DNA of 60,587 bases from Ignavibacteriota bacterium (GTDB taxonomy: Bacteria > Bacteroidota > Ignavibacteria > UBA10030 > UBA6906). Positions 21,237 through 37,995 of the stretch are shown piece after piece. A program made the translations under genes and the position numbers. Within the stretch, counting starts at the first letter, position 1. Every line of letters starts with the position of its first letter. The stretch is taken from NCBI GenBank assembly GCA_003158475.1, contig PMJR01000130.1, forward strand, positions 1 to 60,587, read 5' to 3'. The notes under the pieces are model-generated. The model made no database searches, was not told the origin of the DNA, and was given only the letters and a program-made list of their open reading frames with translations.

Positions 21237-21253
21237 CGCCGTCGTTCCGGATG

Positions 21254-21451
21254 CTATGAATGTTTCCCCCCCGGTTTCCGTCCCTGGTCCTTCGGGTCAT
21301 AGACATCGATGATGATCCGGTACCAGCAGTTCTTGCACGTGAGCGCCCGGTCGACGCTCAACAGCACCTGCTGCCATGGGCTCAGTTTCTGTCCGCAGTG
21401 CGGGCAGGCGTCGAATATCTTCGTGTCGTGATCAGGCACCCGGGCTGGCAA
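21254..21451 (-). CDS. Small zinc-ribbon protein inside the GDH operon
   Basis: 65 residues from a TTG start preceded by GGAGAA; a GTG four codons later is an alternative. Two CxxC knuckles, CPHC (~16-19) and CKNC (~39-42), would bind one zinc. The sequence between is amphipathic and the tail is basic. It overlaps the end of the upstream REC-ATP-grasp gene by 20 bp and lies 17 bp before the GDH gene, so it is in the same transcript. The role is unknown; a protein- or nucleic-acid-binding adaptor is possible. Confidence 0.65.
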
Positions 21452-24400
21452 GGACGTTCTCCGCTTTCAGGATGACACCTTTGTTCGAATGACCGTTGAT
21501 CCTTATTGTCAGCGGGGCGGCGAACCGTATGTGCCGCGTGAACGTGAAACGTTCGACAGGCTCCTGTGCGAGAAGCCAGTCCCAGTCGAGATACCCCTGG
21601 CGGGCATGGACGTTGACGGTGAAGTACCCCACCATGAATGACGTAATGTTCTGGAAAAAATGGGAGCCCTGGGACGGGGTCACGGACATTTCCTTGAACT
21701 CCGTCTCGACGATGGCTCTCGCTCCCGCGATCTGGTCCCACGTCACGGGAATCCCGAGCCACGGGTCGAGTGAACCCCAGCGGCCGACGCCGATGAGAAG
21801 GTAGGGCCTGTTCTCGCCGACGAGCTTCGCGTTGAACGTGCTCACCTCGTGCGCCACTTCACGGCTCCGTGCCCGGTCAAACATGTGAAAATCCACGACG
21901 ACGAGATCCCGGATGTCCTCGATGGCGCCGTTTCCCAGGACCTGGTCGCTCTGGCAGAGCAGCGTATCCTTGTCGAAGTCCTCGACGTTCAACTGGTCCT
22001 GCTCACGGTACACGACGAGCGGACGCATTTGCAGCATGCCGAATTCCATCACCGTCCGCTCCCCGCTCGGGAGGTTGCCGGCGAACTCGATCTCCACGGG
22101 GGTTCCCATTCCCCAGGGGCCCATGTCCAGCAGCAGCTCGAGGATCCGGGGGAGCGGGAACGTCCTGTTCCGGAGGACGGGACCGAACGTCACGATCCTG
22201 ATTCCCTGTCGCGAGAGCCCGTCGTACACGGCGTCGTTCTCCGCGGAGTATGTCCCTCCCGCGAACTGGAGCGTCCCGTCCCGCTCGGCCACGTCGAGCC
22301 CGTACTGCTTTGTGAGTATGTCCCGCGCCCCGGCGTCGAAATCGGAGCTCGCCTCCAGGTCGAGCGCGAAGAACGAGCGCTGCGTGTTGGCGAGCGTCTC
22401 TTTGACGGAATAAAACTGTATGAGGTCCGTCGGGAATTTCGGGGAGAAGCGGATGGCATTCCCGCCGTCGACAACGGTCTTCCCGAGCCCGAGAGCGAGC
22501 GAGACGATCCCGTCCGAGGGCTTCTGCGGGGGGTGAGGGTAGAAATTGTACGAGCGGGCGACCCCCGAAAAGTCCGGGTAGAAACGCTGCTCGTGCGGCG
22601 CCCCGACCATCTTCTGAATGATGATCGCCATTTTTTCTTCTTCCAGGCGGTAGGAAGTCACCTTGATGTAATCCTTCGCGCTCTGGTAGAATGTCGAGGC
22701 GTAGACCTTTTTGATCGCGTTCAACAGGTCGTTCAGCCGCACGAGCGGGTTGAGATGCCTGTTCGGGAGCATGTATGTCTCGTAGACCCCCGCGAAGGGA
22801 TGGTATTGCGAGTCTTCCAGGAGGCTGGAGGAGCGTACCGCGAGCGGCGCCCGCATGAGGTCGAGAAATGCGGCGAGCTCCCCCAGGATCTCTTCCGGAA
22901 AGCGGGTGGCCTCGATGAACCGCCTGGTGATCTCCCGGTCGTCGGTGCATGTCAGTCCGAATTTCCGGAGCCCGTTCTCGTCCACGAACTGGTCGAAGAC
23001 ATCCGTCCCCAGGACCACTGCGGGGGGGACGTAGATGACCACGTTCTCGAAGCGGTCCCGGACGCTGTAGTCGTTGATGAGTGTGCTGACGAACCCGAGG
23101 CCCCGGGCCTTCCCTCCGAGCGAGCCCCCGCCGATCCGGGCGAAGCTGCTGTCGGGGTCGAACGTCTCCTTGGTGAAATCGGCGATGATCCCCCGCTGCC
23201 GTATGTTCCTGTAGTTGTGGAGCGATTGGATCAGGTCGGTCCTGAGAGCCTCCGTCGACGGGTAATCCGATACCTTGCGCGGCCGCAACTGGTGCGCCAG
23301 CCAGAATTCGGTCCGGGCCTTCAGCCAGTTGGAGAAATGGTTCCGCTCGGCGTGATAGAGGATGCTCTCCTCGGGGACGATCGCAAGCTGTTCCTCCAGG
23401 CTGCGGAGGTCGGTGGCGCGCCCCACCTCCACCCCCTCGCGGGTCCGGAAGGCGAAGTCGCCGAAGCTGAAGGAGTGCGCCATGAACTGCCGCAGCTCGT
23501 TCAGCATCATCGGGGTGTCCTTCAGGACGAATGACGCCCCGTTGTCTCGCGCGTCCTGTTCGTTCGCGTGGACGTTGGACATGAGCAGGATGGGTATGTC
23601 CGACTGCTGTTCCTTGACGGCGCGGACGAAGTCGATCCCCGCGCGCGGATCCTGAATCCCCCCGCGGGGGAAATCGACGTCCGAGATGATGCCGAGCGTG
23701 AACTCCCGGTATTCCTGAAAATAGGTCCATGCCTCCTCGTACGACGAACAGAGGAGGATCTTCGGCCTGGCCCTCATCCGGAGGAACTTGTGGGTCAGGT
23801 TGATCCCTTCGGAGATGAGCCGCTGGGACTGCTTCAGGATTTCGGTGTAGATAATGGGGAGGATGGAGGAATAGAACCTGACGCTGTCCTCGATCACGAG
23901 GACCGTCTGTACCCCGACCATGCGCGTGTCGTGGTCGACGTTGATCCGGTCTTCCAGGGACTTGATGATCGCGATGATGATCCGGAAATCCCCCTGCCAG
24001 ATGAACACCTTGTCGAAGACCGACGCGTCGCCTTTAAGGAGAAGGTACTTGAGCTCCCTGTTGTCGTGCGCGAGCAGCACGACAGGGATGTTCAGCCCCG
24101 ATTCCCTGACCAGCCGCGCGAACTGGATCGCCGGCATGTCGTCGATATGGAGCGTGGTGATCACGAGGTCGAACCGGCGTTCTTCTTTCGCCAGCGCTAT
24201 TGCTTCCTTCCCGCTCGAGACTCTCGTAAGCTCGGGGGAATGGCTCAGGTTGAACCCCTGGTACTCGTTCCGAATCAGCTCGTAGAGTCTCCCGTCCTCT
24301 TCGAAGAGGTACAGGTCATACAGGCTCGAGACGAGGAGCACGTCGCGGATCCGGAGCCTCATCAGGTTTTGAAAACCCTGGAACCGGTTCCCGTACCCGT

Positions 24401-24455
24401 GCTCGACGAGCAGTGTATCGAGGGTCTTTGTGATGCTGTCGATATGCTGATCCAC
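21432..24455 (-). CDS. Double-receiver / PEP-pyruvate-binding ATP-grasp fusion protein, paralogue 1
   Basis: About 1007 residues from a GTG at 24455; an ATG at 24533 would begin before a 33-bp palindrome that looks intergenic, and the GTG start matches the paralogue's N-terminus better. Residues ~35-165 form a receiver-like domain whose acceptor position is Thr101 ('FDLVITTLH'), so it is degenerate. A second receiver (~180-330) keeps the acidic pocket (VIEDS), Asp259 ('GIISDVDF') and a Lys ('FVLKD'). The ATP-binding domain of PEP synthase/PPDK follows: 'GGGSLGGKARGLG', 'PLAVRSSSLLEDS..PFAGVYET' and 'QMRPLV'. The phospho-histidine swivel domain and PEP barrel are missing; instead a C-terminal region with 'VGRWGSLDPWLGIPVTWDQ' is conserved in both paralogues. 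It is cytosolic. Function is unknown; a phosphotransfer regulator of the adjacent GDHs is an inference. Confidence 0.85.
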   Translation of the reverse strand: MDQHIDSITKTLDTLLVEHGYGNRFQGFQNLMRLRIRDVLLVSSLYDLYLFEEDGRLYELIRNEYQGFNLSHSPELTRVSSGKEAIALAKEERRFDLVITTLHIDDMPAIQFARLVRESGLNIPVVLLAHDNRELKYLLLKGDASVFDKVFIWQGDFRIIIAIIKSLEDRINVDHDTRMVGVQTVLVIEDSVRFYSSILPIIYTEILKQSQRLISEGINLTHKFLRMRARPKILLCSSYEEAWTYFQEYREFTLGIISDVDFPRGGIQDPRAGIDFVRAVKEQQSDIPILLMSNVHANEQDARDNGASFVLKDTPMMLNELRQFMAHSFSFGDFAFRTREGVEVGRATDLRSLEEQLAIVPEESILYHAERNHFSNWLKARTEFWLAHQLRPRKVSDYPSTEALRTDLIQSLHNYRNIRQRGIIADFTKETFDPDSSFARIGGGSLGGKARGLGFVSTLINDYSVRDRFENVVIYVPPAVVLGTDVFDQFVDENGLRKFGLTCTDDREITRRFIEATRFPEEILGELAAFLDLMRAPLAVRSSSLLEDSQYHPFAGVYETYMLPNRHLNPLVRLNDLLNAIKKVYASTFYQSAKDYIKVTSYRLEEEKMAIIIQKMVGAPHEQRFYPDFSGVARSYNFYPHPPQKPSDGIVSLALGLGKTVVDGGNAIRFSPKFPTDLIQFYSVKETLANTQRSFFALDLEASSDFDAGARDILTKQYGLDVAERDGTLQFAGGTYSAENDAVYDGLSRQGIRIVTFGPVLRNRTFPLPRILELLLDMGPWGMGTPVEIEFAGNLPSGERTVMEFGMLQMRPLVVYREQDQLNVEDFDKDTLLCQSDQVLGNGAIEDIRDLVVVDFHMFDRARSREVAHEVSTFNAKLVGENRPYLLIGVGRWGSLDPWLGIPVTWDQIAGARAIVETEFKEMSVTPSQGSHFFQNITSFMVGYFTVNVHARQGYLDWDWLLAQEPVERFTFTRHIRFAAPLTIRINGHSNKGVILKAENVLASPGA

Positions 24456-24489
24456 GGCGCTCGGTCCCGGGAGGAATGGTACATCAGGG

Positions 24490-24522
24490 CTGCAGGGACC
24501 GCCCGGCGGGCGGTCCCTGCAG
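24490..24522. repeat. Perfect 33-bp palindrome (15-bp arms) between gdh and REC-ATP-grasp genes
   Basis: CTGCAGGGACCGCCC (24490-24504), spacer GGC, then GGGCGGTCCCTGCAG (24508-24522). Every arm base pairs, mostly G-C, giving a very stable RNA stem. No T tract follows on either strand, so it is not a classical terminator. It lies after the gdh stop (24551) and before the GTG start (24455), where an intercistronic hairpin could stabilise or uncouple the two halves of the transcript. Confidence 0.9.
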
Positions 24523-24550
24523 CGGTCACACATGACAACAGGAGGTCACA

Positions 24551-25912
24551 TTACACGACACCCTGGTCCATCATTGCATCGGCGACCTTCAGGAACCCGC
24601 CGATGTTGGCGCCGTTGACGTAGTTCCCCGGTGTCCCGAACCGGTCGGCCATCTGAACGCACGTCGAATGGATGCTCTTCATGATCATACGGAGCCGGTT
24701 GTCGACTTCGTCCCGGGTCCAGGGGAGACGCATGCTGTTTTGCGCCATCTCCAGTCCGGAGACAGCCACGCCTCCGGCGTTGGCGGCCTTGCCGGGACCG
24801 TACAGGATCTTTGCGTCGAGGAACACCCTGACGCCTTCGAGCGTCGTGGGCATGTTTGCCCCCTCCGCCACAAGGTACGCGCCGTTCCGGACGAGATTCT
24901 GTGCGTCCTTGTTGTTGATCTCGTTCTGCGTTGCGCTCGGGAATGCGCAGTCGGCTTTGTGGCTCCAGAGGGGATTGTAGTCGAGCTTCGGGTTGACAGG
25001 GGTGTACACCGCGTTCTTGAACTTCGCCGTATACTCCTTGATCCGCTCCCGGCGCACGTTCTTCAGCTCCATGATGGCGGCCAGCTTCTCCGTCGTGATC
25101 CCGGCCTCGTCGTAAATATACCCGTCGGAGTCGGACACCGTCACCGCCTTCCCGCCGAGCTGGAGGATCTTTTCGATCGTGTACTGCGCCACATTGCCGC
25201 TGCCGGAGACCAGGCAGACCTTTCCCTCCAGAGTCTTGCCGCGCGTCGAGAGCATCTCGGCCGCGAAGTAGACCGCGCCGTACCCCGTGGCTTCGGGGCG
25301 GATGAGCGAGCCGCCCCAGTTGAGCCCCTTGCCGGTCAGCACGCCCGTGAATTCGTTCCGCAGCTTCTTGTACTGGCCGAACAGGTAGCCTATCTCCCGC
25401 CCGCCGACGCCGATATCCCCCGCGGGAACGTCGGTATCGGGGCCGATGTGCCGGGAGAGCTCGCTCATGAACGCCTGACAGAATCGCATGACCTTCAAGT
25501 CGCTTTTTCCCTTCGGGTCGAAATCCGATCCTCCCTTGCCCCCGCCCATGGGGAGTGTGGTCAGGCTGTTCTTGAACACCTGTTCGAAGGCGAGGAACTT
25601 CAGTATGCCGAGCGTCACGGAGGGATGGAACCGGAGTCCTCCTTTGTACGGACCGATGGCGCTGTTCATTTCAATGCGGTAGCCGCGGTTGATCCGGACT
25701 TCCCCCTGGTCATCCACCCACGGCACCCGGAACATGATGACCCGTTCCGGTTCGATGATGCGTTCGAGTATCCTCGCCGTCCGGTACTCCGGATGGCGTT
25801 CGAGGACGAGGGAGAGGGATTCTGCGACCTCCTGCACAGCCTGATGGAATTCAGGTTCCGCCGGGTTTTTCGTCTTCACTTCTGCTATGAGGTCATTGGC
25901 GTACTGCGACAT
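24551..25912 (-). CDS. gdhA: NADP-type class I glutamate dehydrogenase
   Basis: 453 residues, the usual length of hexameric small GDHs. The N-terminal domain carries 'GGGKGGSDFDPKGKSD' with the catalytic Lys and 'VPAGDIGVGGREIGY' with the catalytic Asp. The nucleotide site reads VSGSGNVAQY followed by SDSDG, the pattern of Escherichia coli-type NADP-dependent enzymes; on that basis it is probably anabolic (2-oxoglutarate + NH4+ + NADPH to glutamate). The ATG at 25912 has a strong GGAGGT ribosome-binding site. It lies between the two REC-ATP-grasp genes, with gaps of 77 bp upstream and 95 bp downstream. It is clearly homologous to the GDH at 28982, so the [gdh + REC-ATP-grasp] pair has probably been duplicated. 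Confidence 0.94.
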   Translation of the reverse strand: MSQYANDLIAEVKTKNPAEPEFHQAVQEVAESLSLVLERHPEYRTARILERIIEPERVIMFRVPWVDDQGEVRINRGYRIEMNSAIGPYKGGLRFHPSVTLGILKFLAFEQVFKNSLTTLPMGGGKGGSDFDPKGKSDLKVMRFCQAFMSELSRHIGPDTDVPAGDIGVGGREIGYLFGQYKKLRNEFTGVLTGKGLNWGGSLIRPEATGYGAVYFAAEMLSTRGKTLEGKVCLVSGSGNVAQYTIEKILQLGGKAVTVSDSDGYIYDEAGITTEKLAAIMELKNVRRERIKEYTAKFKNAVYTPVNPKLDYNPLWSHKADCAFPSATQNEINNKDAQNLVRNGAYLVAEGANMPTTLEGVRVFLDAKILYGPGKAANAGGVAVSGLEMAQNSMRLPWTRDEVDNRLRMIMKSIHSTCVQMADRFGTPGNYVNGANIGGFLKVADAMMDQGVV

Positions 25913-25989
25913 GACTACCTCCGTGTTGAAGTGTGTCTGTCTGGTGTGCTGCAGACGTAATCGATGAGATTACGTTTCAACCTATCGCG

Positions 25990-28971
25990 TCAGCGGCCCG
26001 GTTTCAGTATGATGCCGATGTTCTTCCTCCCGTTGATCTTCGCCACGATCGGCTCATCGAACTGCAGATGCCGCGTGAAGCGCAACTCTTCCGCGGCGGG
26101 CTGCTGCCTCAGCCAGTCCCAGTCGATGTACCCGAGGTGAGAGAACGAATTCACCGTGAAATACCCGACGCGGAACGAGGTGATATTCTGAAAGAAATGC
26201 GATCCTTGGGACGGGGTCACATTGAAATCCTTGAACCCTGACTCGACGATGACGGAGGCGCCAGCGATCTGGTCCCATGTCACCGGGATCCCGAGCCACG
26301 GGTCGAGGCTCCCCCAGCGGCCGACCCCGATGAGGAGGTACGGACGCTTGCGCGCTATCAGGTCCGTGTTGAACAGGCTCACCTCGGCCCCGACATCCTT
26401 CGCCCGGGACCGTTCGAATTGCTGGATGTCGACGACCACGATGTCGTGGATATCCCTGATGACGCCGTTTCCCAGTACCTGCTGGCTCTGGCAGATCAGG
26501 TCTTCCTGTCCGACGGAGTTGACCTCGAGCTCCTCCATCTCGAGGCTGAGGACGAGCGGGCGGATCTGCAACAGCGCGAATTCCTTGGGTTGCCCCGGGG
26601 GGACCTTCATGTTGACCGCGAACTCGATTTCCACCTGTGACCCCATCCCCCACGTCCCCATATCAAGAATAAGTTCGAGGATCTCGGCAAGCGGGAATAT
26701 CCCGTGTTTCAATATCGGCGCGAATGTGACAACCCTCTTCCCCTCCCGGGAGACCCCGTCGTACACGGATTCGTTTTCCGGGGAGTACGTCGAGCCGACG
26801 TAGAAGAGTGTCTGGTCCTCCTCCGCTTTGCTCAGGTCGTATTGTTCCACGAAGGCCTCTGGGGAGCGGCGTTCCTCCCCGTCACGCCCCCGGGCGAGGT
26901 TCAGGGCAAGAAAATCCTGCTGGGCGTTCCGTATCGTCTCCAGGGTCGAGAAAAACTGGAGCAGGTGGCGGGGATACCTGGGAGAAAAGCGGACGGCGTT
27001 TCCCCCGTCGACGACGGTCTTTCCGAGGCCGAGCGCGACCTGGACGATGCCGTCGGTGGATTTCTGCGGCGGGACGGGATAGAAGTTGTATGATTTTGCG
27101 ACCCCGGCGAACGCGGGGTAGAACCTGTCATGGTGCCGGGCGCCGACCATCCTCTGTATGATCACCGCCATTTTTTCCTCCTCCAGCCGGTAGGAGGTGG
27201 CCTTCATGTAGTCCTTTGCGCGCTTGGAAAATGTCGAAGCAAACACGAGCTTGATGCTCAGGAGCAGTTCCCTGAGCCTCACCTCCGTGTCGGGGTCGTT
27301 GTTCGGGATCATGAACGTCTGGTACACCCCGGCGAAGGGCTGGTATTGCGAATCCTCCAGAAGGCTGGAAGAGCGGACCGCAAGAGGCTCGCGCATGATC
27401 TCGAGGAATTCCCGGAGTTTTGCGGCGATGTCCAGAGGGAACCGCGGAGCCTCCATGAAACGTCGCTGCACCTCCTCCTCGTCGGTCGAAGAGAGTGCGA
27501 ATGTCTCCATGTGATTCTCGCTGAGAAACCTGTCGAAGACATCGGTTCCCACCACGATCGCGGATGGGACGGCGATCTCGACATCCGGGTACTTGTCGCG
27601 CAGATTGTAGTTGCTTATCAGCGTGTTGATGAACCCCAGCCCGCGGCCTTTCCCCCCGAGGGACCCCGAGCCGACGCGGGCGAAGCTGCTCGCAGGGTCG
27701 AATGTCTCCCTGGTGAACTCGGTGATCACACCCCTCTGGCGGATCTCCTGGTACTGATGCAGCGAGAGGATAAGCTCATTCCGCAGCTCGACCACAGACG
27801 GAAAATCCGACACCTTGCGGGGTCGGAGCCTGTGGGCGAGCGAAAACTCCGTTCTCGCCTTGAGCCAATTTGAGTAATGATTCCGTTCCGCGTGATAAAG
27901 GATGCTCTCGTCCGGGACGTGATGAAGCTGCTCCTCGAGCGTTTTGAGGTTGTTCGCGCGCCCCACCTCCCTCCCGTCCGGCGTCCGGAAAATGAAATCG
28001 CCGAAGCCGAAGTGCTCCATCATGAACTTGCGGAGGTCGTACAGGAGCCGGGGGGATCCCTTCTGCAGAAACTCGAGGCCGATTTCACGCGCCCTCTCCG
28101 CGAATTCCGTGTTGCTGGACTGGAGGAGGATGGGGATGTCTTCGTGCCGGCTCCTGACCATCCTGGCAAACGTGAATCCCCCCTCCGGGTCCTTCACCCC
28201 GTTGTGCTTGAAGTTCACGTCCGAAATGATCCCGAGGATGAAATCCTGGTACTGTTCAAAATAGGCCAGGGCCTCTTCGTAGCTTGTGCACAGGAGGATC
28301 TTCGGGCGCGCGCGCATGCGCAGGAACCGGTGCGAGAGGTTGAGTCCTTCCGAGATCAGGCGCTGCGACTGGAGATGGATCTCCGTGTAAATGAGGGGGA
28401 GGTAGGACGAGTAGAAACTGACGTTGTCTTCGATAAGGATGATGGACTGCAGCCCGACGCTCAGAGTATCGCTTTCGACATTGCGCCTGTCTTCGATGTG
28501 CTTGATTATTGCGATGAGGAGCCGGTAATCCCCCTGCCAGATGAATATCCTCTCGAAGATCGACGTATCGTAGTTGCTGACAAGCTCCCTCCGTTCCCTG
28601 TTGTCGTACGCCAGAAGAACGATCGGCACGCTGTTCCCGGCCTGCCGGACCTTTTGCGCGAACCGGACGACGTTCATGTCCTCGATATGCAGCGTCGTGA
28701 TGATCAGATCGAAATGCTCCTCCGATTGGAGGAGATCGATCGCTTCCGCCGCACTGGTGACGTGCGTTATCTCCGGGGGCTGGCTGAGGTTCAGGACCTG
28801 GAATTCCTGCCGGATCAGCTCGTAGAGTCGTCCGTCTTCCTCGAACAGGTAATTGTCGTACAGGCTGGCAACGAGAAGGATGTCGCGGATTTTGAAATGC
28901 ATGAGCCGCTGAAAGGATTTCAGCCGGCTCCCGTAGATATCCTCGATTTGGAGATGGTCAATTCTGTCCAT
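25990..28971 (-). CDS. Double-receiver / PEP-pyruvate-binding ATP-grasp fusion protein, paralogue 2
   Basis: 993 residues, collinear with the paralogue at 21432 along the whole length. The first receiver-like domain has Thr93 at the phospho-acceptor position ('FDLIITTLH'); the second has Asp251 ('GIISDVNF'), an IEDN acidic pocket and a Lys ('LQKGS'). The ATP-grasp part shows 'GSGSLGGKGRGLG', 'PLAVRSSSLLEDS..PFAGVYQT', 'GLGKTVVDGG' and 'LQIRPLV'. As in paralogue 1 there is no swivelling His domain and no PEP-binding barrel, and the GVGRWGSLDPWLG motif is kept near the C-terminus. It begins 10 bp after the NAD-type gdh stop, so it is translated from the same mRNA. PEP synthase activity is unlikely given the missing domains. 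Confidence 0.87.
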   Translation of the reverse strand: MDRIDHLQIEDIYGSRLKSFQRLMHFKIRDILLVASLYDNYLFEEDGRLYELIRQEFQVLNLSQPPEITHVTSAAEAIDLLQSEEHFDLIITTLHIEDMNVVRFAQKVRQAGNSVPIVLLAYDNRERRELVSNYDTSIFERIFIWQGDYRLLIAIIKHIEDRRNVESDTLSVGLQSIILIEDNVSFYSSYLPLIYTEIHLQSQRLISEGLNLSHRFLRMRARPKILLCTSYEEALAYFEQYQDFILGIISDVNFKHNGVKDPEGGFTFARMVRSRHEDIPILLQSSNTEFAERAREIGLEFLQKGSPRLLYDLRKFMMEHFGFGDFIFRTPDGREVGRANNLKTLEEQLHHVPDESILYHAERNHYSNWLKARTEFSLAHRLRPRKVSDFPSVVELRNELILSLHQYQEIRQRGVITEFTRETFDPASSFARVGSGSLGGKGRGLGFINTLISNYNLRDKYPDVEIAVPSAIVVGTDVFDRFLSENHMETFALSSTDEEEVQRRFMEAPRFPLDIAAKLREFLEIMREPLAVRSSSLLEDSQYQPFAGVYQTFMIPNNDPDTEVRLRELLLSIKLVFASTFSKRAKDYMKATSYRLEEEKMAVIIQRMVGARHHDRFYPAFAGVAKSYNFYPVPPQKSTDGIVQVALGLGKTVVDGGNAVRFSPRYPRHLLQFFSTLETIRNAQQDFLALNLARGRDGEERRSPEAFVEQYDLSKAEEDQTLFYVGSTYSPENESVYDGVSREGKRVVTFAPILKHGIFPLAEILELILDMGTWGMGSQVEIEFAVNMKVPPGQPKEFALLQIRPLVLSLEMEELEVNSVGQEDLICQSQQVLGNGVIRDIHDIVVVDIQQFERSRAKDVGAEVSLFNTDLIARKRPYLLIGVGRWGSLDPWLGIPVTWDQIAGASVIVESGFKDFNVTPSQGSHFFQNITSFRVGYFTVNSFSHLGYIDWDWLRQQPAAEELRFTRHLQFDEPIVAKINGRKNIGIILKPGR

Positions 28972-28981
28972 GGAACTTCGT

Positions 28982-30322
28982 TTAGACGAGCCCCTGGTCG
29001 AGCATTGCGTCGGCGACTTTGAGGAACCCGGCGATGTTGGCTCCGCTGACGTAGTTTCCCGGAGTACCGTATTTTTCCGCCGTGTCGACGCAGGTCTGAT
29101 GTATGTTCTTCATGATCTGGTGGAGCCTGAGGTCGACTTCCTCCTTCGGCCACGGGAGACGCATGCTGTTCTGACTCATCTCCAGGCCCGACGTGGCGAC
29201 TCCTCCCGCGTTTGATGCTTTCCCGGGGGAGTAAAGCACGTGCGCGTCGAGGAAGACCTTGACGCCGTCCAGCGTGGTGGGCATATTTGCTCCCTCGCAC
29301 ACGCATTTGCAGCCGTTCTTTATCAGCTCCCGCGCATCCGCCGTGTCCAGTTCGTTTTGGGTTGCACAGGGGAGAGCGACGTTCACCGGGACGCTCCAGG
29401 GGCGCTTGCCGGCGTAGAACGGGACGTTGAACTTGTCCGCGTAATCCTTCACCGCATCACGCGCGCTCGCCCTCATTTTGAGCATGTAGTGTATCTTCTC
29501 GCCGCTTATCCCCTCTTTGTCGTGTATGAAGCCGTCAGGTCCGGAGAGAGTGATCACCTTTCCCCCCAGCTCCGTGACCTTTTCCACGACACCCCACGCG
29601 ACGTTGCCGAATCCCGAGACCGCGACCGTTGCGCCGTCGAACGTCATCCCTTTGGTCTTCAACATTTCCTGCGCAAAGTAGACGACGCCATAGCCGGTCG
29701 CCTCGGGACGGATGAGCGACCCTCCCCAGTTGATCCCTTTCCCGGTGAGAACTCCGGAGAATTCTCTCGTCAATCTCTTGAACTGTCCGAAAAGGTACCC
29801 GATCTCCCGTCCCCCGACGCCGATGTCACCTGCAGGGACGTCGATATCGGGCCCGATGTGTCTGAAAAGCTCCGTCATGAAACTCTGGCAGAATCGCATC
29901 ACCTCGTTGTCGCTCTTCCCCTTGGGATCGAAATCCGAGCCCCCTTTTCCCCCCCCCATGGGGAGTGAGGTAAGGCTGTTTTTGAAGACCTGCTCAAATG
30001 CGAGAAACTTCAATATCCCGAGATGGACCGAAGGATGGAATCTGAGACCCCCCTTGTACGGACCTATTGCGCTGTTCATCTGGATCCGGAACCCGCGATT
30101 GATGTGAATCTCTCCCTGATCATCGGCCCAGGGGACCCTGAACATGACGACCCGTTCCGGCTCCACCATTCGCTCGAGTATCTTTGCGGAGCGGTATTCG
30201 GGATGCCGCTCGAGCACAAGGTCAAGAGACTCGGAGACTTCCTGCACAGCCTGGTGAAATTCCGGTTCACTTGGATTTTTGGCTTTCACCTGAGCTATCA
30301 CGTTTTTCACATACTCAGACAT
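28982..30322 (-). CDS. NAD-type class I glutamate dehydrogenase, first gene of the array
   Basis: 446 residues from the ATG at 30322, which is preceded by GAGGAT. A longer open frame to 30463 is rejected because it runs through the promoter region and an operator-like dyad. The catalytic motifs are as in the enzyme at 24551. The nucleotide site, however, reads VSGFGNVAWG followed by LSGPDG, as in the NAD-dependent GDH of Clostridium symbiosum. On that basis it is probably catabolic (glutamate to 2-oxoglutarate, NAD+). The downstream REC-ATP-grasp gene starts 10 bp after its stop. It heads the minus-strand array. Confidence 0.93.
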   Translation of the reverse strand: MSEYVKNVIAQVKAKNPSEPEFHQAVQEVSESLDLVLERHPEYRSAKILERMVEPERVVMFRVPWADDQGEIHINRGFRIQMNSAIGPYKGGLRFHPSVHLGILKFLAFEQVFKNSLTSLPMGGGKGGSDFDPKGKSDNEVMRFCQSFMTELFRHIGPDIDVPAGDIGVGGREIGYLFGQFKRLTREFSGVLTGKGINWGGSLIRPEATGYGVVYFAQEMLKTKGMTFDGATVAVSGFGNVAWGVVEKVTELGGKVITLSGPDGFIHDKEGISGEKIHYMLKMRASARDAVKDYADKFNVPFYAGKRPWSVPVNVALPCATQNELDTADARELIKNGCKCVCEGANMPTTLDGVKVFLDAHVLYSPGKASNAGGVATSGLEMSQNSMRLPWPKEEVDLRLHQIMKNIHQTCVDTAEKYGTPGNYVSGANIAGFLKVADAMLDQGLV

Positions 30323-30374
30323 ACCATCCTCACGAAATGACTGGATCAGTTGTGACGACACGGGGAAGAGTGTC

Positions 30375-30405
30375 CAAACTATGAGGTTTAAGGAGAAAAA
30401 ACAAC
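30375..30405 (-). promoter_or_regulatory. Candidate Bacteroidota-type promoter of the GDH array
   Basis: On the minus strand GTTG (30405-30402), a 20-base spacer and TAGTTTG (30381-30375) resemble the TTTG-N19/20-TAnnTTTG promoter of Bacteroidota, with one base missing in the -7 box. Transcription would begin around 30368, leaving a short leader before the ATG at 30322. The match is imperfect. Confidence 0.35.
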
Positions 30406-30437
30406 TGCTTCCCTCGCTGGTTGGTTCAACGGAAACC

Positions 30438-30458
30438 GCGTGCTCATTATGAATGAGC
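30438..30458. promoter_or_regulatory. 21-bp dyad, operator candidate
   Basis: GTGCTCATT (30438-30446), spacer ATG, AATGAGCAC (30450-30458): a perfect 9-bp inverted repeat. It lies about 70 bp upstream of the predicted start of the GDH array transcript, where an activator site would be expected. The binding protein is unknown. Confidence 0.6.
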
Positions 30459-30515
30459 ACCACTCGTGCCAGAAAATGGATTTCTGCTGGCGGCCCGGGA
30501 AGAGTATGACGTGCA

Positions 30516-30532
30516 GTTTAAATGATTTAAAC
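30516..30532. promoter_or_regulatory. 17-bp AT-rich dyad, operator candidate
   Basis: GTTTAAAT-G-ATTTAAAC is a perfect 8-bp inverted repeat with a one-base centre, of the size bound by a dimeric helix-turn-helix protein. It is 58 bp from the neighbouring 21-bp dyad. Confidence 0.55.
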
Positions 30533-30562
30533 GTGAATTTCCTCCGGAGCGGCGAAAAGTGA

Positions 30563-30576
30563 GGGAACACGTTCCC
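30563..30576. promoter_or_regulatory. 14-bp dyad GGGAAC-AC-GTTCCC
   Basis: Perfect 6-bp arms with a two-base centre; outer AGTG and CACT bases extend the symmetry imperfectly. It is the third dyad within about 140 bp of the same intergenic region. Confidence 0.5.
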
Positions 30577-30938
30577 GTTTCCACTCATGAGCTATTCTCA
30601 AAAGTGGGATCAGATTTGAGTTTTTGGGACAGCACGCCGTTGTCATTTGCATCGTCGGCATGGAGAATTGCAACAGTAGAGTTAACTCTTGATATCATAA
30701 TAGGTTATTCGGATCTGAGGGTGGGAATCAGAGCAAGTATGTTGCATAACGCAACTTCAACGCCCTCCACAAATCCCCGCGGAATTGAGGTCTATTTGTG
30801 ATCTGAGCCTAACTCATTGTTGCACACACGTTTCTTTAGCTTAAATAATCATCAGTTGCGATGAGGGGAATATGGCACGAATCCTGATAAGTTTGTGCAG
30901 AAGAGTGAACGCAGGTTACAGCCGGAAAGGAGTCAATC

Positions 30939-31571
30939 ATGTCAGCAATACTCGCCTTGGCCACAATAATCGTCCTGATGGTCGTCGGCCTGATCCGCCA
31001 TTCCAGCCATCGGGCGACCATTGCATCTCCCGTGATCGTGAAGCGCTACATACATCCGGGGCATACGTGGGTGCGTGAGACGGAGGACGGTGACGTCCTT
31101 GTGGGCATAGATGATTTCGCCCAATCCCTCATCGGGACGATAGACGGACTCGTTCTCCCCCGGCTTCTGAGAAGGGTGGAACAGGGGAAGGTTGCCTGGA
31201 AGGTCCGGCACGGGTCCCGTGCAGTACCGATGGTCTGCCCCGTGAGCGGCAGAGTGGTCGAAAAGAACGGGATGGTGATGGCGCATCCCGCGCTCGTGAA
31301 TTCCTCCCCCTATGGAGACGGCTGGCTGATACGCGTACGGCCCAGTCGGCTGCCGGCACAACTGCATAACCTGATCACCGGAAAGTCCGCGCAGCAGTGG
31401 CTCGACGGCGCGCGGGCGCAGCTTGCCCGGTTCTTTTCGGGGACTCCCGCGCTGATGTACCAGGACGGCGGCGTCATCCTGACGGATCTTGCCGACCGTT
31501 GCTCCGCGGAGGAGTGGGAGAAGCTGGTGAGTGAGTTCTTCCTCGTAGACGAAAACACGAAACAAGACTGA
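30939..31571 (+). CDS. Membrane-anchored GcvH-like protein lacking the lipoyl lysine (first copy)
   Basis: 210 residues with AGGAG before the ATG. One N-terminal transmembrane helix ('SAILALATIIVLMVVGLI') is followed by a glycine-cleavage H-protein-like barrel (~38-145): 'HPGHTWVRE', 'VLVGIDDFAQSLIG', 'CPVSGRVVEKN' and 'NSSPYGDGWL'. In true GcvH the lipoyl Lys lies eight residues before the Pro of the P-x-S-G turn; here that position is Ser and the neighbouring residue Arg, so lipoylation at the usual site is not possible. A C-terminal helical extension (~150-210) is not part of GcvH. It heads the plus-strand redox operon, 14 bp before a second copy. Confidence 0.8.
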   Translation: MSAILALATIIVLMVVGLIRHSSHRATIASPVIVKRYIHPGHTWVRETEDGDVLVGIDDFAQSLIGTIDGLVLPRLLRRVEQGKVAWKVRHGSRAVPMVCPVSGRVVEKNGMVMAHPALVNSSPYGDGWLIRVRPSRLPAQLHNLITGKSAQQWLDGARAQLARFFSGTPALMYQDGGVILTDLADRCSAEEWEKLVSEFFLVDENTKQD

Positions 31572-31585
31572 CGGGAGAGACGACA

Positions 31586-32260
31586 ATGACTGTCCTATTG
31601 ATGCTTGGCATGATCGTGATATTCCTCGCGGCCGACAGGATCGTCCAGAAACTGCGGGCGATGAAAGAAGCACGCAGGGTTCTGCAGCCGGGAACCATCC
31701 TGTCCGAACCCCCGGAGGGGGTCCGCCTCGCCCTGAACCATACCTGGATGAAAATGGAAAAAGGGGTCGCCGTGATCGGTACGGACGAATTTCTTGCGAG
31801 GATGGTCGGCGCGGTGGAATCCTTCATGCTCCCCGACGTGGGGGCGACGGTCGCCCCGGCGAGCCTGAACATTGCGCTCGCGCACGGCGGACGGAGAGTC
31901 CGGCTCGGGTCCCCTGTGGCGGGCCGCATCCTGGAGGTGAACTCCGGGATCCTCCGCAATCCCATGCTCGCCGGCCGCGATCCGTACGGGAGCGGGTGGC
32001 TCTTGAAGGTTTCCCCCGACCCGGCGCGCGGAAGTGCGTCCGGTTCGCTTACCGGCGCCGCTGCGCGCGAATGGCTCCGGGGTCAGATGTCTCTTGCGAA
32101 GGAATTTCTCGCCGGTGTCCCCCCCCGGACGTCGTTCGCGTCGCTCCCGGACGGCGGGGAGCCCGCCGAGGGTGCGCTCCTTCATTGTGATGCCGCCGCC
32201 TGGGAAGAATTCGAGCGTCGTTTCACCACAATCCATGCACCGGAAACGACTACCACCTGA
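31586..32260 (+). CDS. Membrane-anchored GcvH-like protein lacking the lipoyl lysine (second copy)
   Basis: 224 residues with the same plan as its neighbour: N-terminal transmembrane helix ('[18 protein letters not shown]'), GcvH-like barrel with '[16 protein letters not shown]', '[12 protein letters not shown]' and '[12 protein letters not shown]', and a C-terminal helical region ending in an acidic/aromatic '[11 protein letters not shown]'. No lysine occupies the lipoylation position ('[13 protein letters not shown]'). The two copies are clearly divergent from each other, so they may form a heteromer. It ends 17 bp before the ferredoxin gene. Confidence 0.8.
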
Positions 32261-32277
32261 GAAATGGGGGAAGCCTC

Positions 32278-33054
32278 ATGTTGAAATCCAAAGGGTTGTT
32301 GATTGATATCACCAGGTGCGTCGGCTGCCATGAATGCGAGCGGGCGTGCGCGGAGGCGAATCGTCTCCCGCAGGAGCCCGCCACCGATCTGTCGGCAAGA
32401 CGATGGACGTACCTGAAGAGCTACAACGATGAGACCGTGTTCGTGCGGCGCCTCTGCATGCACTGCAACGAGCCCACATGCGTCTCGGCATGCCTTGTCG
32501 GTGCCTTCACAAAGACCGAAACCGGGGCGGTGCTGTATGACGAATCAAAATGCATCGGCTGCCGGTACTGCATGCAGGCCTGCCCGTTCGAGGTGCCGCG
32601 GTACGAATGGGGAAGCCTCGCGCCGAAGATACAGAAGTGCCGCTTGTGCTATGAACGGATTGCGGGAGGAGGACAGACCGCGTGCGCCGAGGCTTGCCCC
32701 GCCGGTGCGACCGTCTTCGGTAACCGTGACGACCTGATCAGGGAAGCCCGCGCGCGGATCGACGCGAACCCGGGGGGATACGTCGATTATATCTACGGCC
32801 TGAGCGAGGCGGGGGGGACTTCCGTCCTGTTTCTTTCCGCCATACCGTTTGAGAAGCTGGGGTTCCCGATGAACATCCCGAAGGAGCCGATTCCGGACCT
32901 CTCCTGGCGGGTTCTTTCGCAGGTCCCGAAATATGCCGTCGCGGCGGGGGTCCTGCTCTTCGGCATCAACTGGATCACTGCGCGGCGCACGGATGTTGCG
33001 CGTTTTGAAGCTGAGGAACGCCGCAGGGCGATCACTGAACACCGGGAAAGGTGA
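32278..33054 (+). CDS. HybA/HmcB-like four-cluster ferredoxin with C-terminal membrane helix
   Basis: 258 residues. Sixteen cysteines fall in the four-cluster arrangement of HybA/DmsB/NrfC-type subunits: [35 protein letters not shown] and [20 protein letters not shown]. They should hold four [4Fe-4S] clusters relaying electrons between a catalytic subunit and the quinone-interacting protein encoded next. A C-terminal transmembrane helix ('[15 protein letters not shown]', ~220-235) is present as in HybA, but the N-terminus starts directly with the first cluster and has no Tat signal. The arginine-rich tail after the helix would favour a cytoplasmic C-terminus. Confidence 0.9.
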
Positions 33055-33059
33055 CCACG

Positions 33060-34238
33060 ATGAAATTCGAGGGAATATTCAAGCTCACATTCTGGAAGGC
33101 CGTCGCGATCGTGCTGATGGCAACCGGGTTCGCGGCTGCGATTGAACGATATGCGCTCGGCCTCGGAGCCACCACGAACCTGAAAGATACGTTCCCCTGG
33201 GGGATCTGGATCGGCTTCGACATTCTTGTGGGTGTCGGTCTCGCCGCCGGCGGGTTCACCATAGCGGCGACGGTCTATATTTTCGGGATTGAGCGGTTCA
33301 GGCCCATACTCCGGCCGACAATTCTCACGGCGTTTCTGGGATACCTTCTTGTCATCGCCGGGCTGATGGCCGACCTGGGCCGCCCCTGGGCCATCTGGCA
33401 CGCAATCATCATGTGGAATCCCCACTCGGTGATGTTCGAAGTCGCCTGGTGCGTCATGCTCTATACGACGGTGCTGGCGCTGGAATTCAGCCCTGTCATC
33501 CTTGAGCATTTCAAGCTTCAGCGCACGCTGAGGGTCATCAAGGCGATCACGATCCCCCTGGTGATCCTGGGGGTCATACTCTCCACGCTGCATCAGTCGT
33601 CGCTCGGATCGCTGTTCCTGATCATACCGGGGCGGATGCACCCGCTCTGGTATTCGAACATCATCCCGTTCCTCTTCATCATTTCCTGTGTGGCGGCCGG
33701 ACTCGCGATGACGATCATCGAATCGTTCCTCTCCTCCCGCGCTTTCGGGAGGGAGGTCGAGCTTCCCCTTCTCTCGGAGATCTCCCGCGTGATCGTCGTG
33801 GTGCTCGCACTCTATTTCACCGTGCGTGTCCAGGACCTGATGAGCCGCGATGCGCTGAAGTACGTCTTCATGCCGACGTATCAGAGCGGCATGTTCCTCG
33901 TGGAAATCATCCTGGGGGTGCTCCTGCCGTTCTGCCTCCTGCTTTCACGGAAAGTCCGGTCAAGCAAGACGGGTCTGTTCTACTCGGCGGTCCTCGTCCT
34001 GCTCGGGTTCGTTGCGCACAGGATGAACACGGCGATCACCAGCATGGAGCACTGGCCGGACAGGCTGTATGTCCCCTCGGTGCAGGAACTCTGCGTCACG
34101 CTGGGGCTCGTCGCCTTCGGGTTCACCGCCTTTGCATTCGTCGCACGCTATTTCAACGTCTTCGGCGAAGCGCCTCACGAGGTGGACGAGATCCGTGAGG
34201 ATCAGCCGGCGGAACTTACCCACGCCTCGTTTGAATAG
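33060..34238 (+). CDS. HybB/NrfD-family integral membrane quinone-interacting subunit
   Basis: 392 residues with about ten hydrophobic segments. 'FPWGIWIGFDILVGVGLAAGGF' is the typical HybB/NrfD opening, and 'ADLGRPWAIWHAII.WNPHSVMFEV' and 'LHQSSLGSLFLI' are also characteristic. The family exchanges electrons between menaquinone and an iron-sulfur partner. The ATG at 33060 has AGGTGA at good spacing, whereas the GTG at 33051 overlaps the ferredoxin stop and is too close to its own purine tract. No hydrogenase, molybdopterin enzyme or multihaem cytochrome gene is present in the cluster, so the catalytic partner must lie elsewhere. Confidence 0.92.
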   Translation: MKFEGIFKLTFWKAVAIVLMATGFAAAIERYALGLGATTNLKDTFPWGIWIGFDILVGVGLAAGGFTIAATVYIFGIERFRPILRPTILTAFLGYLLVIAGLMADLGRPWAIWHAIIMWNPHSVMFEVAWCVMLYTTVLALEFSPVILEHFKLQRTLRVIKAITIPLVILGVILSTLHQSSLGSLFLIIPGRMHPLWYSNIIPFLFIISCVAAGLAMTIIESFLSSRAFGREVELPLLSEISRVIVVVLALYFTVRVQDLMSRDALKYVFMPTYQSGMFLVEIILGVLLPFCLLLSRKVRSSKTGLFYSAVLVLLGFVAHRMNTAITSMEHWPDRLYVPSVQELCVTLGLVAFGFTAFAFVARYFNVFGEAPHEVDEIREDQPAELTHASFE

Positions 34239-34451
34239 GCGCAAATACCCTCCTTTCAAGGGGCGCCCCGCCATAATGTTCACAAATGCAACACTCCTTC
34301 CTAGCTGTGGGAATCCTGTACGGCGATTCAGGACGTGTGGGGACCACATCCCGCGCAAAATCTTACAATTGTGCGGTTTTCCCCGATTTGTGCATGGCAT
34401 GATTTATGAACTTTCCATGTTCACCACGGCCAGGGGAAAGATCGGCTCCCG

Positions 34452-36113
34452 ATGAGAAGAATTGTGCAGACCATTGCGTTCAGGCTTTTCCTGCTGATCG
34501 TATCCGTCCAGACCCTTGTCCTCGCTCTCCTGACGTACGCCGTCCTCCGCGTCCAGGAATCAAGCCTGATGGACAACGTCCAGTCGAGCGCGGTCCGGGT
34601 GAGCGAGATGATCCGTCGCGCGACGAGACACAGCATGATGTACAACCGTAACGCCGACGTCGACGGGATCATTGCCGAGATGTCCGGTGAACCGGGGATC
34701 GAGGGGATCCGGGTCTACAACAAGACGGGGGAGGTCTCGTACAGCACGGTTCCCTCCGAGCTCCACTCCAGGGTCGACATGAACGCCGAAGCGTGCGTGA
34801 GCTGCCACTTTGAAAGCGGTCTGGAGAATCCCCATCCGGTCTCGGCTGAACTTTCCCGCATTTTCAACACGCCGGACGGTCACCGGGTGCTCGGCCTGAT
34901 AACACCGATCCGGAACGAGGCGCAGTGCTCGGACGCCGACTGTCACGCTCATCCCCCCTCCAGGACGATACTCGGGGTCCTCGACGTGAAGATGTCGCTC
35001 GCGCAGGCGGACCTCAGGCTGGCAGACGCCAAAAGGGAACTGCTTTCCGCGTCTGTCGCCGCCGCGCTCCTTGTCGGCCTTGTCTCGGGCGGGTTCATCT
35101 GGCTTGTGGTCCGGCGCCCCGTACGCCGGCTGACGCGTGGGATGCAGATGGTCTCCTCCGGAGACCTGTCCCAGCATCTGCTCTCCACCTCGCGGGACGA
35201 GCTGGGGCAGCTCGCGCAGACGTTCAACAGCATGACGCAGGAGCTCGCGCGCGCGCGGGGTGAAGTCACCGCGTGGTCGGAGACGCTCGAGCAGAAAGTG
35301 CGCGAGAAGACCGCCGACCTGGAGCGCGCGCACCGCCAGATGGTGGGGGTGGAGAAAATGGCCTCGCTGGGGAACCTGGCCTCCAGCGTGGCGCATGAAC
35401 TGAACAATCCCCTCGAGGGGATACTCACATTCGCGCGGCTTCTCGTGAAGCGCGTGCAGCGGTCCACGCTTCCCGCAGAGGAGGCGAAACCCTATGTGGA
35501 TGACCTCACGCTGATGGGGGACGAGGCCCTCCGGTGCGGCAACATTGTGAAGAACCTTCTCGTGTTCGCCCGCCAGCGGGGAGTCTCTTTTCAAAGCGTG
35601 CGCGTTGCACAGGTGATCGAACGGTGCGTTCTCCTGATGAATCACCATGCACGGATGCACAACGTCGAGCTGAAGACGTCCTCGACCGGCGACGATCTGC
35701 TGGAATGCGATCCGGACCAGGTCCAGCAGGTGTTGATCGCACTGATGGTGAACGCCATCGAGGCGATGGCCCCTTCGGCAGGGCGGAACGAGGGGGGGAC
35801 GCTCTCTCTCGACGTCCGCTCCGGCGGGGGGGATGGCAAAATCCGCCTGCTTGTCAGCGACACCGGGGTCGGCATGAGCGAGGAAACCACGGCGCATATC
35901 TTTGAACCGTTCTACACCACGAAATCGGATTCCAAGGGGGTCGGGCTCGGTCTTTCCGTGGCCTACGGGATACTCGAGCGGCACCACGCGACGGTCGACG
36001 TGGAATCGGCCGTGGGGAAGGGGACGGTGTTCACGCTGACCTTTCCCGCGAAGCAACCGGGTCCCGGTGTTCAGCAGTCAATGTCATCTTCGGTCGAAGG
36101 AAACCACGAATGA
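34452..36113 (+). CDS. Sensor histidine kinase with periplasmic c-type haem motifs
   Basis: 553 residues. Transmembrane helix 1 (~10-32) and helix 2 (~198-222) enclose a periplasmic domain with two haem-c attachment candidates: CVSCH (115-119) and a spaced CSDADCH (159-165, CX4CH). HAMP (~222-275), a coiled-coil linker, the HisKA phospho-acceptor His315 ('SVAHELNNPLEG') and a full HATPase domain (DTGVGM, GVGLGL) follow. It resembles DUF3365/Tll0287-like haem sensors in arrangement, but the family of the periplasmic domain is not certain. It would sense redox state, O2, NO or CO through haem. It overlaps the sigma-54 regulator gene by 4 bp and follows the HybB gene by 213 bp. Confidence 0.9.
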   Translation: MRRIVQTIAFRLFLLIVSVQTLVLALLTYAVLRVQESSLMDNVQSSAVRVSEMIRRATRHSMMYNRNADVDGIIAEMSGEPGIEGIRVYNKTGEVSYSTVPSELHSRVDMNAEACVSCHFESGLENPHPVSAELSRIFNTPDGHRVLGLITPIRNEAQCSDADCHAHPPSRTILGVLDVKMSLAQADLRLADAKRELLSASVAAALLVGLVSGGFIWLVVRRPVRRLTRGMQMVSSGDLSQHLLSTSRDELGQLAQTFNSMTQELARARGEVTAWSETLEQKVREKTADLERAHRQMVGVEKMASLGNLASSVAHELNNPLEGILTFARLLVKRVQRSTLPAEEAKPYVDDLTLMGDEALRCGNIVKNLLVFARQRGVSFQSVRVAQVIERCVLLMNHHARMHNVELKTSSTGDDLLECDPDQVQQVLIALMVNAIEAMAPSAGRNEGGTLSLDVRSGGGDGKIRLLVSDTGVGMSEETTAHIFEPFYTTKSDSKGVGLGLSVAYGILERHHATVDVESAVGKGTVFTLTFPAKQPGPGVQQSMSSSVEGNHE

Positions 36114-37456
36114 ACAAAAGTGAGATCGGCATACTTGTGGTGGACGACGAGCTCATCGTCCGCGAATCGCTCAGCAAATGGTTCAGGGAGGACGGCTTCC
36201 GCGTTGACGCCGCGGAAAGCGCCGCCGCCGCACTGCGGAAGCTGCAGGCAGGCCCCTGGAACATCATGCTTGTGGATATCAAGATGCCCGGCATGGACGG
36301 CATTGAGCTCCTGCAGCGCGTCCGGCAGACAAGCAAGGACGTCGTTGTCATCGTGATCACGGCCTTCGCCACCGTGGACACCGCAGTCAAGGCCCTGAAG
36401 GAAGGCGCCTTCGACTACATCACGAAGCCGATCGATCCCGACTACCTGGACCACATGGTGGACAAGGCGCTGCAGCAACAACTGCTCGTCCGGGAGAATC
36501 AGAAACTGAAGGACACGGTGAGCGAGCTGTCGGAGGCCCGCGAAATCGTCGGCGAGTCACCTGAAATGAAGAAGGTGATGGACCTGGTCCGCACGGTCGC
36601 GCCGACGGACACGACGGTGATGATACGGGGGGAGAGCGGTACGGGGAAGGAGCTCGTGGCCCGCGCGATACATGCCGGGAGCGGCCGGAAGTACTTCCCG
36701 ATTGTCACCGTCAACTGCGGTGCGATGACCGAAAGCCTGCTCGAGAGCGAGCTCTTCGGGCACGAGCGCGGGGCCTTCACCGGGGCCCAGTACCGGAGGA
36801 AGGGGAAAGTGGAGCTTGCGGACGGCGGCACCCTCTTTCTCGACGAGGTCGGCAACATCGATACGAAGACTCAGATGGACCTTCTGCGCGTGATCGAAAC
36901 GAAGCAGTTCACGCGTGTGGGAGGCACCGAGATCCTCCGGTCGGATTTCAGGGTGGTATGCGCGACGAACAAGGACCTGGAATGCGCGGTGCGGGAAGGA
37001 ACGTTCAGGGAGGATCTGTACTACCGCCTGAACGTCTTCACGATCGATCTTCCGCCTCTCCGGGGCCGGCGGGGGGACATCGCAAATCTCGCCCACTATT
37101 TCCTGGAGAAGTTCTCCCGTCAGATGAACAGGAAAGTACAGGGGTTCAGCCCCGAGGCGATGCAGGCGCTCAAGGCCCACGACTGGCCCGGGAACGTGCG
37201 GGAGCTCGAAAACGCCGTAGAGCGGGCGATGGTGGTTGTGCAGGGGGAAGTGATCGAGAGAAGCCACCTTCCGCTGCACGCCCTGGTGACCGGCCAGAGG
37301 GACGGGAAGCGGCTGGAAGACATCGAACAACGCCACATCGAGCAGGTGCTTCGCGACAACGGGTGGAACGTGAGCCGGAGTGCGGCGATTCTCGACATCG
37401 ACAGGGTGACGCTCTACCACAAGATTGAGAAGTTCGGACTCAAGCGCGAGCAATGA
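36110..37456 (+). CDS. NtrC-family sigma-54-dependent response regulator
   Basis: 448 residues: receiver (~5-120, acceptor Asp56 in 'LVDIKMPGMDG', Lys in 'YITKP'), AAA+ domain (~145-380) with Walker A GESGTGKE, the sigma-54 contact loop GAFTGA and Walker B 'LFLDEVG', and a Fis-type helix-turn-helix ending in 'RVTLYHKIEKFGLKREQ'. It is the partner of the haem-motif kinase, and its ATGA overlaps with both neighbours indicate translational coupling. Its promoters should be sigma-54 type; a TGGCACG element with a poor -12 box lies at 30873, upstream of the GcvH-like genes. Confidence 0.93.
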   Translation: MNKSEIGILVVDDELIVRESLSKWFREDGFRVDAAESAAAALRKLQAGPWNIMLVDIKMPGMDGIELLQRVRQTSKDVVVIVITAFATVDTAVKALKEGAFDYITKPIDPDYLDHMVDKALQQQLLVRENQKLKDTVSELSEAREIVGESPEMKKVMDLVRTVAPTDTTVMIRGESGTGKELVARAIHAGSGRKYFPIVTVNCGAMTESLLESELFGHERGAFTGAQYRRKGKVELADGGTLFLDEVGNIDTKTQMDLLRVIETKQFTRVGGTEILRSDFRVVCATNKDLECAVREGTFREDLYYRLNVFTIDLPPLRGRRGDIANLAHYFLEKFSRQMNRKVQGFSPEAMQALKAHDWPGNVRELENAVERAMVVVQGEVIERSHLPLHALVTGQRDGKRLEDIEQRHIEQVLRDNGWNVSRSAAILDIDRVTLYHKIEKFGLKREQ

Positions 37457-37995
37457 ACGCCATCCACCTTCTCCCACTCGGCGGAACGAGCACTGTTCTT
37501 GTGGAGGCCCTCTCCGGGCACCTGCGGCAGACGTTCCGCACACGGGTGGAGATGCACGCGTTCAGCCTGGACCCCGAGCGGTTCTTCGACGCGGGGCGCG
37601 GTCAGTACAATTCCACCGATCTGCTCATGCACCTCAAGAGCCACTATCCCGCGCTCGAGCAGGGGCCAGGCGTCTGCACGCTGGCGCTCGTCCCGTTCGA
37701 CCTGTTCATCCCGATCCTGACGTACGTATTCGGCGAGGCCGAAGTCGGGGGGAATGTGGCGGTCGTCTCGTACCACCGTCTCTCACCGGAACGGTACGGG
37801 CTTCCTCCCGACAACGCCCTGCTCCTGGCGCGGTTCGTCAAAGAGGTTGTCCATGAGCTCGGCCACGTGTTTTCCCTCATCCATTGTTCGGCGCAATCGT
37901 GTGTCATGCATTCTTCATCGTACGTTGAGGAGATCGATCTGAAGGAACAATCGTTCTGCCGCGCCTGCGCGTCGGAACTGGGGCTCAGGTACTGA
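37453..37995 (+). CDS. amzA: Archaemetzincin-family zinc metalloprotease
   Basis: 180 residues, typical archaemetzincin length. The signature HExxHxxGxxHCxxxxCxM is present as HELGHVFSLIHCSAQSCVM (residues 134-152), but with Ser where Gly is usual. The distal CRAC gives the second, structural zinc site together with the two preceding cysteines. No signal peptide is seen, so it is cytosolic. Substrates of this family are unknown. It overlaps the sigma-54 regulator gene by 4 bp, so its production is tied to the regulatory pair. Confidence 0.9.
   Translation: MNAIHLLPLGGTSTVLVEALSGHLRQTFRTRVEMHAFSLDPERFFDAGRGQYNSTDLLMHLKSHYPALEQGPGVCTLALVPFDLFIPILTYVFGEAEVGGNVAVVSYHRLSPERYGLPPDNALLLARFVKEVVHELGHVFSLIHCSAQSCVMHSSSYVEEIDLKEQSFCRACASELGLRY

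Follow-up and report, generated by a model that had tools for sequence, protein, structure and literature searches.

What does a GcvH fold serve once the residue that carries lipoate is gone? GcvH and its relatives are usually taken to be lipoyl carriers. The question is raised by two adjacent genes, here called GH1 and GH2, in a window of 60,587 nucleotides from an Ignavibacteriota bacterium (positions 1 to 60,587 of contig PMJR01000130.1, assembly GCA_003158475.1); the lysine-less family to which they belong keeps the rest of the fold under selection. A preliminary description of this stretch had read both products as membrane-anchored GcvH folds without the lipoyl lysine, which may act as docking or assembly factors for a neighbouring HybA/HybB pair.

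Fold, lipoyl position and anchor of GH1 and GH2

Both ORFs were recovered, in tandem, where they had first been placed (Table 1). GH1 matches the Pfam family GCV_H (PF01597) with 80 bits (E 1.7e-22) and GH2 with 52 bits (E 6e-14), the cut-off being 22.2. Their equivalog scores fall short, at 64.5 (GH1) and 47.7 (GH2) versus a cut-off of 115.85 bits for TIGR00527, and at 84 and 47 versus 117 for NF002270. AlphaFold2 models (pLDDT 88.7 for GH1 and 85.8 for GH2) superpose on the solved structure of Thermus thermophilus GcvH (1onl) with TM scores of 0.88 (1.6 A) and 0.85 (2.5 A), respectively. In Foldseek searches (E<=0.001), each matches GcvH or GcvH-like structures only, with the whole H protein covered. 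The GH1 model retains the lipoyl hairpin as well (strands 85-91 and 94-100, with a tight turn at G92-S93).

The column of the lipoyl lysine is occupied by Ser93 in GH1, as had been described, and by Gly102 in GH2, where an arginine had been named by mistake; basic residues stand beside it, Arg94 at +1 in GH1 and Arg at both +1 and +2 in GH2. In a profile alignment, Lys fills this column in all 40 canonical GcvHs (taken from other genomes) and in 8 of 145 members of the divergent family, these and the following counts being of sequences and not of independent events, because some genes came through two collections. Of the 8 lysine-bearing entries, one (L040) is a distinct GcvH-like protein that has the lysine, and another two represent a single gene retrieved twice. 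At -3, Glu is found in 39/40 canonical and 9/145 divergent sequences, and the structural Asn turn is kept throughout, with Asn at +17 in 40/40 and 145/145. A conserved lysine close to the lipoyl site was not found in the family: the residue at +1 is Arg in 74/145 and Lys in 26/145.

It might be argued that GH1 and GH2 still carry a lipoyl group on another residue, or are just decaying copies of GcvH. The fold is wholly retained, position +1 is basic in 100/145 sequences, and in the genome of the window a canonical GcvH was not found although GcvP is present, on a different contig and near its start (C123:805). We nonetheless regard this explanation as very improbable. Arg cannot be lipoylated, Lys at +1 occurs in a minority, Glu at -3 is lost, and a canonical GcvH is encoded separately in almost every relative sampled. 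The gap in this genome is likely one of assembly, because same-genus genomes do have GcvH. Moreover, when the window genes, a second copy on contig C128 and those of two same-genus genomes are compared in pairs, GH1 has a dN/dS of 0.15-0.20 and GH2 one of 0.18-0.21; the values for HybA are lower (0.07-0.16), and those for GH1 and GH2 are still well under 1, which excludes decay and a pseudogene status. Identity with canonical GcvH was rejected on the lysine, Glu(-3), the equivalog scores and gene context, and identity with LbpA on the lysine and gene context.

The N-terminal membrane helix of the preliminary description is borne out by Kyte-Doolittle values of 2.79 (GH1) and 2.23 (GH2). In 61 relatives, K/R residues average 0.0 ahead of this helix and 4.1 in the 15 residues behind it, so that by the positive-inside rule the anchored GcvH domain is predicted to be N-out/C-in and cytoplasmic. 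The TM-receiver-GcvH fusions described below, which have a similar N-terminus, agree with this side, the cytoplasm being where receivers become phosphorylated. The C-terminal extension is likewise conserved, with little or no variation at W154, D176-G177-G178 and F200 (GH1 numbering) across 27 diverse members. On the evidence of the predicted structures, GH1 and GH2 are thereby confirmed as membrane-tethered GcvH-fold proteins without a lipoyl lysine. In other families, a gene that follows HybB encodes a third GcvH-like type, which lacks the N-terminal helix; most of these proteins have an N-terminal motif of the C-x12-C-x5-C-x2-C type, a possible metal or Fe-S site; CxWMxAGxxxYxLCxxxxxCxxC precedes the lysine-less GcvH domain at L056-L059, L066, L068, L071, L072 and L074-L079.

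The operon and its promoters

Table 1. Features of the GH1/GH2 operon, in window coordinates
Feature	Position	Strand	Length or score
Sigma-54-type promoter-like site TGGCACGAATCCTGAT, 50 bp ahead of GH1 start	30873..30888	+	
GH1: TM, GcvH-fold domain without lipoyl Lys (Ser93), conserved C-terminal extension	30939..31571	+	210 aa
GH2: TM, GcvH-fold domain without lipoyl Lys (Gly102), C-terminal extension	31586..32260	+	224 aa
HybA/HmcB-like 16-Cys ferredoxin, no Tat signal	32278..33054	+	HmcB 258 bits, cut-off 420
HybB/HmcC-like NrfD-family membrane protein, 10 predicted TM	33051..34238	+	HmcC 315 bits, cut-off 550
Weaker sigma-54-like site TGGCATGATTTATGAA ahead of kinase	34395..34410	+	
Membrane histidine kinase, CxxCH and CX4CH heme-type motifs between its two TM helices	34452..36113	+	
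NtrC-type sigma-54 response regulator	36110..37456	+	
Archaemetzincin (M54), conserved in operon	37453..37995	+	

Start and stop codons of several neighbouring genes overlap in an operon-like manner. HmcB and HmcC are the top-scoring families for the HybA/HybB-like genes, yet both matches stay under the equivalog cut-offs, and no ORF of the window has more than one CxxCH, i.e. none encodes a multiheme cytochrome HmcA. The kinase (HisKA/HATPase) and the regulator (receiver, sigma-54 AAA and Fis HTH) have the features of an NtrC-family two-component system. CxxCH and CX4CH lie between two membrane helices in every kinase listed, a pattern consistent with a periplasmic sensor to which c-type heme would be attached.

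A TGGCA-type sigma-54 site is located 35-110 bp 5' of the operon at 24 of 26 loci, compared with 3.3% of control upstream regions of the same loci; the binomial figure for this enrichment, 7e-34, overstates the evidence, because related loci were treated as independent. Since the operon encodes a sigma-54 activator, its autoregulation through sigma-54 is likely.

Without a Tat signal, the HybA encoded in the window may reside in the cytoplasm. In relatives whose HybA does carry one, HybA is predicted to be exported to the periplasm and the GcvH domain to be cytoplasmic, so ferredoxin docking would not be the general function of the GcvH-like proteins (automatic Tat calling is rough, and the calls for L046 and L085 are probably spurious, caused by ORFs extended too far at the start). 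A flipped HybB was considered as the cause of the missing signal and rejected: the loop charges show the same pattern, and predict the same topology, for the Tat and non-Tat groups. A cytoplasmic HybA would then have to dock onto an unflipped HybB, which is puzzling.

Upstream of the operon and divergent from it, the window encodes two alternating pairs of a receiver/PEP-utilising-like protein of ~1000 aa and a glutamate dehydrogenase (21432-30463). A second copy of this region, 78-84% identical, is present in the genome bin, with window positions 21093-34178 corresponding to 1-13369 of locus L009 on contig C128. The duplicated segment comprises the PEP-synthase-like/receiver proteins, the glutamate dehydrogenases, GH1, GH2, HybA and HybB, and C128 ends just past HybB; the two copies might be paralogous, or the bin might contain a second strain.

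Recurrence of the gene set and fusions of the GcvH-like domain

Forty neighbourhoods from relatives were fetched and scanned. The gene set of the operon recurs in six families of the order and in other phyla. Among named genomes, the closest relatives of GH1-type proteins are Ignavibacteriae MAGs, and the set is also found in one Acidobacteria MAG and one Hydrogenedentota MAG, a list that under-samples the GcvH-like family because only GH1-type rows were searched. With a strict profile (E<=1e-40), the divergent family was detected in 82 of 197 genomes sampled from the class, and in 31/199, 2/68 and 60/247 sampled genomes from the phyla of the Acidobacteria MAG, the Hydrogenedentota MAG and a Syntrophobacterales MAG, respectively; these fractions are lower bounds for divergent members, as they vary with the cut-off and the profile was built largely from Ignavibacteria sequences, and a few borderline matches might belong to other GcvH-like proteins. 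Neighbourhoods in those phyla again hold HybA/HybB, the kinase, the regulator and M54.

Of the 38 loci flanked on each side by over 3.5 kb of sequence, 33 have a kinase and regulator nearby, 29 have HybA/HybB-like genes, and 25 have archaemetzincin, a regular operon member. The operons often contain two or three GcvH-like paralogues each. HybB is absent (E<=1e-10) from G005 (98% complete) and G026 (100% complete), in which the GcvH-like proteins, kinase, regulator and M54 are retained; G026 has one weak ferredoxin match elsewhere in the genome. G001 also seems to lack HybB but was not counted, as its kinase sits at a contig end. All six near-complete genomes with divergent GcvH that were checked have the kinase (that of the window, G000, with G005, G012, G017, G019 and G026). 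In G012, G017 and G019 it lies elsewhere in the genome, and the loci of G012 and G019 hold GcvH-like and HybA/HybB genes.

Fusions place the domain in two settings. In sister operons (L048, L053, L054, L062, L064 and L070), the GcvH-like domain is fused to a receiver (Rec-GcvH or TM-Rec-GcvH), and these receivers are intact, with the Asp pair, phospho-Asp, Thr and Lys all present. A Tat-type HybA and a HybB adjoin them, together with a kinase with the di-heme motif and, in most, a multiheme cytochrome gene. The kinases of these operons have a four-Cys ribbon in the ATPase region; in L053:10726-12600 and other cluster-B kinases it takes the form of an insert, CPxC-x10-CPxC, that resembles a zinc ribbon. 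A class III cytochrome match was obtained for the multiheme gene of a Hydrogenedentota relative (L197) and for a small tetraheme gene from another phylum (L188). Elsewhere, the GcvH-like domain forms the C-terminus of Fer4-FlpD-Molydop_binding and Pyr_redox_2-Fer4 proteins (L182:7607-10522, L183:5136-8099 and L184:8708-12109), and the FlpD-type Fe-S fusions are without a receiver.

The docking idea of the preliminary description is partly supported by these data. Co-location with HybA/HybB stands, and docking on HybB or another cytoplasmic partner is possible. The idea is incomplete, in that the kinase and regulator accompany the GcvH-like genes even more often, HybB is missing from two genomes, and receiver fusions exist. 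A constitutive role, in which the GcvH-fold proteins are permanent cytoplasmic docking subunits of the HybA/HybB complex and the two-component system controls transcription only, draws on the HybA/HybB neighbours, on the fusions to FlpD/Fer4 and Pyr_redox_2/Fer4 proteins, and on the window HybA, which without a Tat signal may face the same side as the GcvH domain. It sits poorly with the retention of GcvH-like genes in the HybB-less genomes, with the receiver fusions, and with a Tat-type HybA predicted across the membrane from the GcvH domain; we consider it rather unlikely.

Dedicated chaperones are relied upon by Fe-S molybdoenzyme complexes elsewhere. By analogy, the GcvH-fold proteins could be assembly or maturation factors for insertion or quality control of the Fe-S/NrfD complex, leaving before it works and perhaps acting with the archaemetzincin, whose recurrence in the operon counts in favour of such a role. 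Two or three paralogues per operon, a permanent membrane anchor, the receiver fusions and persistence without HybB all speak against such a transient factor, and its probability appears low.

A proposed docking module between redox complex and signalling

The explanation that we favour, with about even confidence, is that GH1 and GH2 are lipoate-free, cytoplasm-facing docking or regulatory modules that would join a redox complex to two-component signalling. It is supported by the predicted fold, the loss of the lysine, purifying selection and operon conservation, and further by the receiver fusions, the heme motifs, the sigma-54-type sites and the two genomes that keep the GcvH-like genes although they lack HybB. 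Because the kinase lies elsewhere in G012 and G019 and the FlpD-type fusions have no receiver, the data also agree with GcvH-fold proteins that are purely structural parts of redox complexes.

According to the signalling-linked model, GH1 and GH2 would be held at the cytoplasmic face of the membrane by their single N-terminal helix, would no longer carry aminomethyl or acyl groups, and would link, as docking or regulatory subunits, a quinone-linked ferredoxin/NrfD module of the HmcB/HmcC type to the two-component system. The kinase may sense the redox state of the periplasm or of the respiratory chain through c-type hemes and phosphorylate the NtrC-type regulator, which would switch on the operon from its sigma-54 promoter. 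Meanwhile, the GcvH modules may dock on the cytoplasmic side of the redox complex, on the kinase, or on both, and set their activity and with it electron flow. In the sister operons, the docking module itself would be the output domain of a response regulator (Rec-GcvH).

Each part has a known counterpart. With GcvH (PF01597; 1onl, 3a7l), GH1 and GH2 share the full-length fold, the Gly/Pro/Asn structural turns and the geometry of the lipoyl hairpin; they differ in lacking the lipoyl Lys and Glu(-3), in having the membrane helix and an added conserved C-terminal extension of about 60 residues, and in lying outside a gcv cluster. LbpA of sHdr sulfur oxidation is likewise a GcvH-like protein recruited into a redox system, but its lipoyl lysine is strictly conserved and its genes are located with hdr-like genes (eLife 2018, PMC6067878), whereas GH1 and GH2 lack that lysine and have HybA/HybB-like, kinase, regulator and M54 genes as neighbours. 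HmcB/HmcC of the Hmc complex and HybA/HybB of hydrogenase 2 are ferredoxin and NrfD pairs of the same subfamily, and the sister operons resemble Hmc also in their multiheme cytochrome gene. The window pair departs from both in its sub-cut-off scores, a ferredoxin without Tat signal, no multiheme cytochrome, and the extra GcvH-like and kinase genes. In Melioribacter, an NrfCD pair is described as a quinol-linked complex, and GcvH is not named in the text consulted (PMC3534657), which counts against the favoured explanation. The c-heme PAS sensors GSU0582 and GSU0935 of Geobacter (3b47, 3b42) are comparable as membrane receptors with a periplasmic c-type heme-motif sensor; the window kinase has marginal sequence similarity to them, two heme-type motifs, and a histidine kinase output instead of a chemoreceptor. 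In the open literature, judged mainly from titles and abstracts, no description was found of the lysine-less GcvH family, the receiver-GcvH fusions or the GcvH-like operon. The GH1/GH2 system is a new variation on known parts, with a putative function.

On a match to Pfam GCV_H alone, these proteins would be annotated as glycine cleavage H protein and wrongly assigned to glycine metabolism. Because relatives in several phyla adjoin or are fused with electron-transfer and signalling proteins, an old metabolic carrier seems to have been turned into a docking or control part. More tentatively, and as a possibility we hold with some doubt, the lysine-less GcvH fold may be a widespread phosphorylation-controlled docking module, which in several phyla would couple two-component signalling directly to membrane and cytoplasmic electron-transfer complexes and permit post-translational control of respiration without lipoate. 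If these proteins are regulatory docking modules, they would offer a testable route from heme-motif kinases to the control of NrfD-type complexes.
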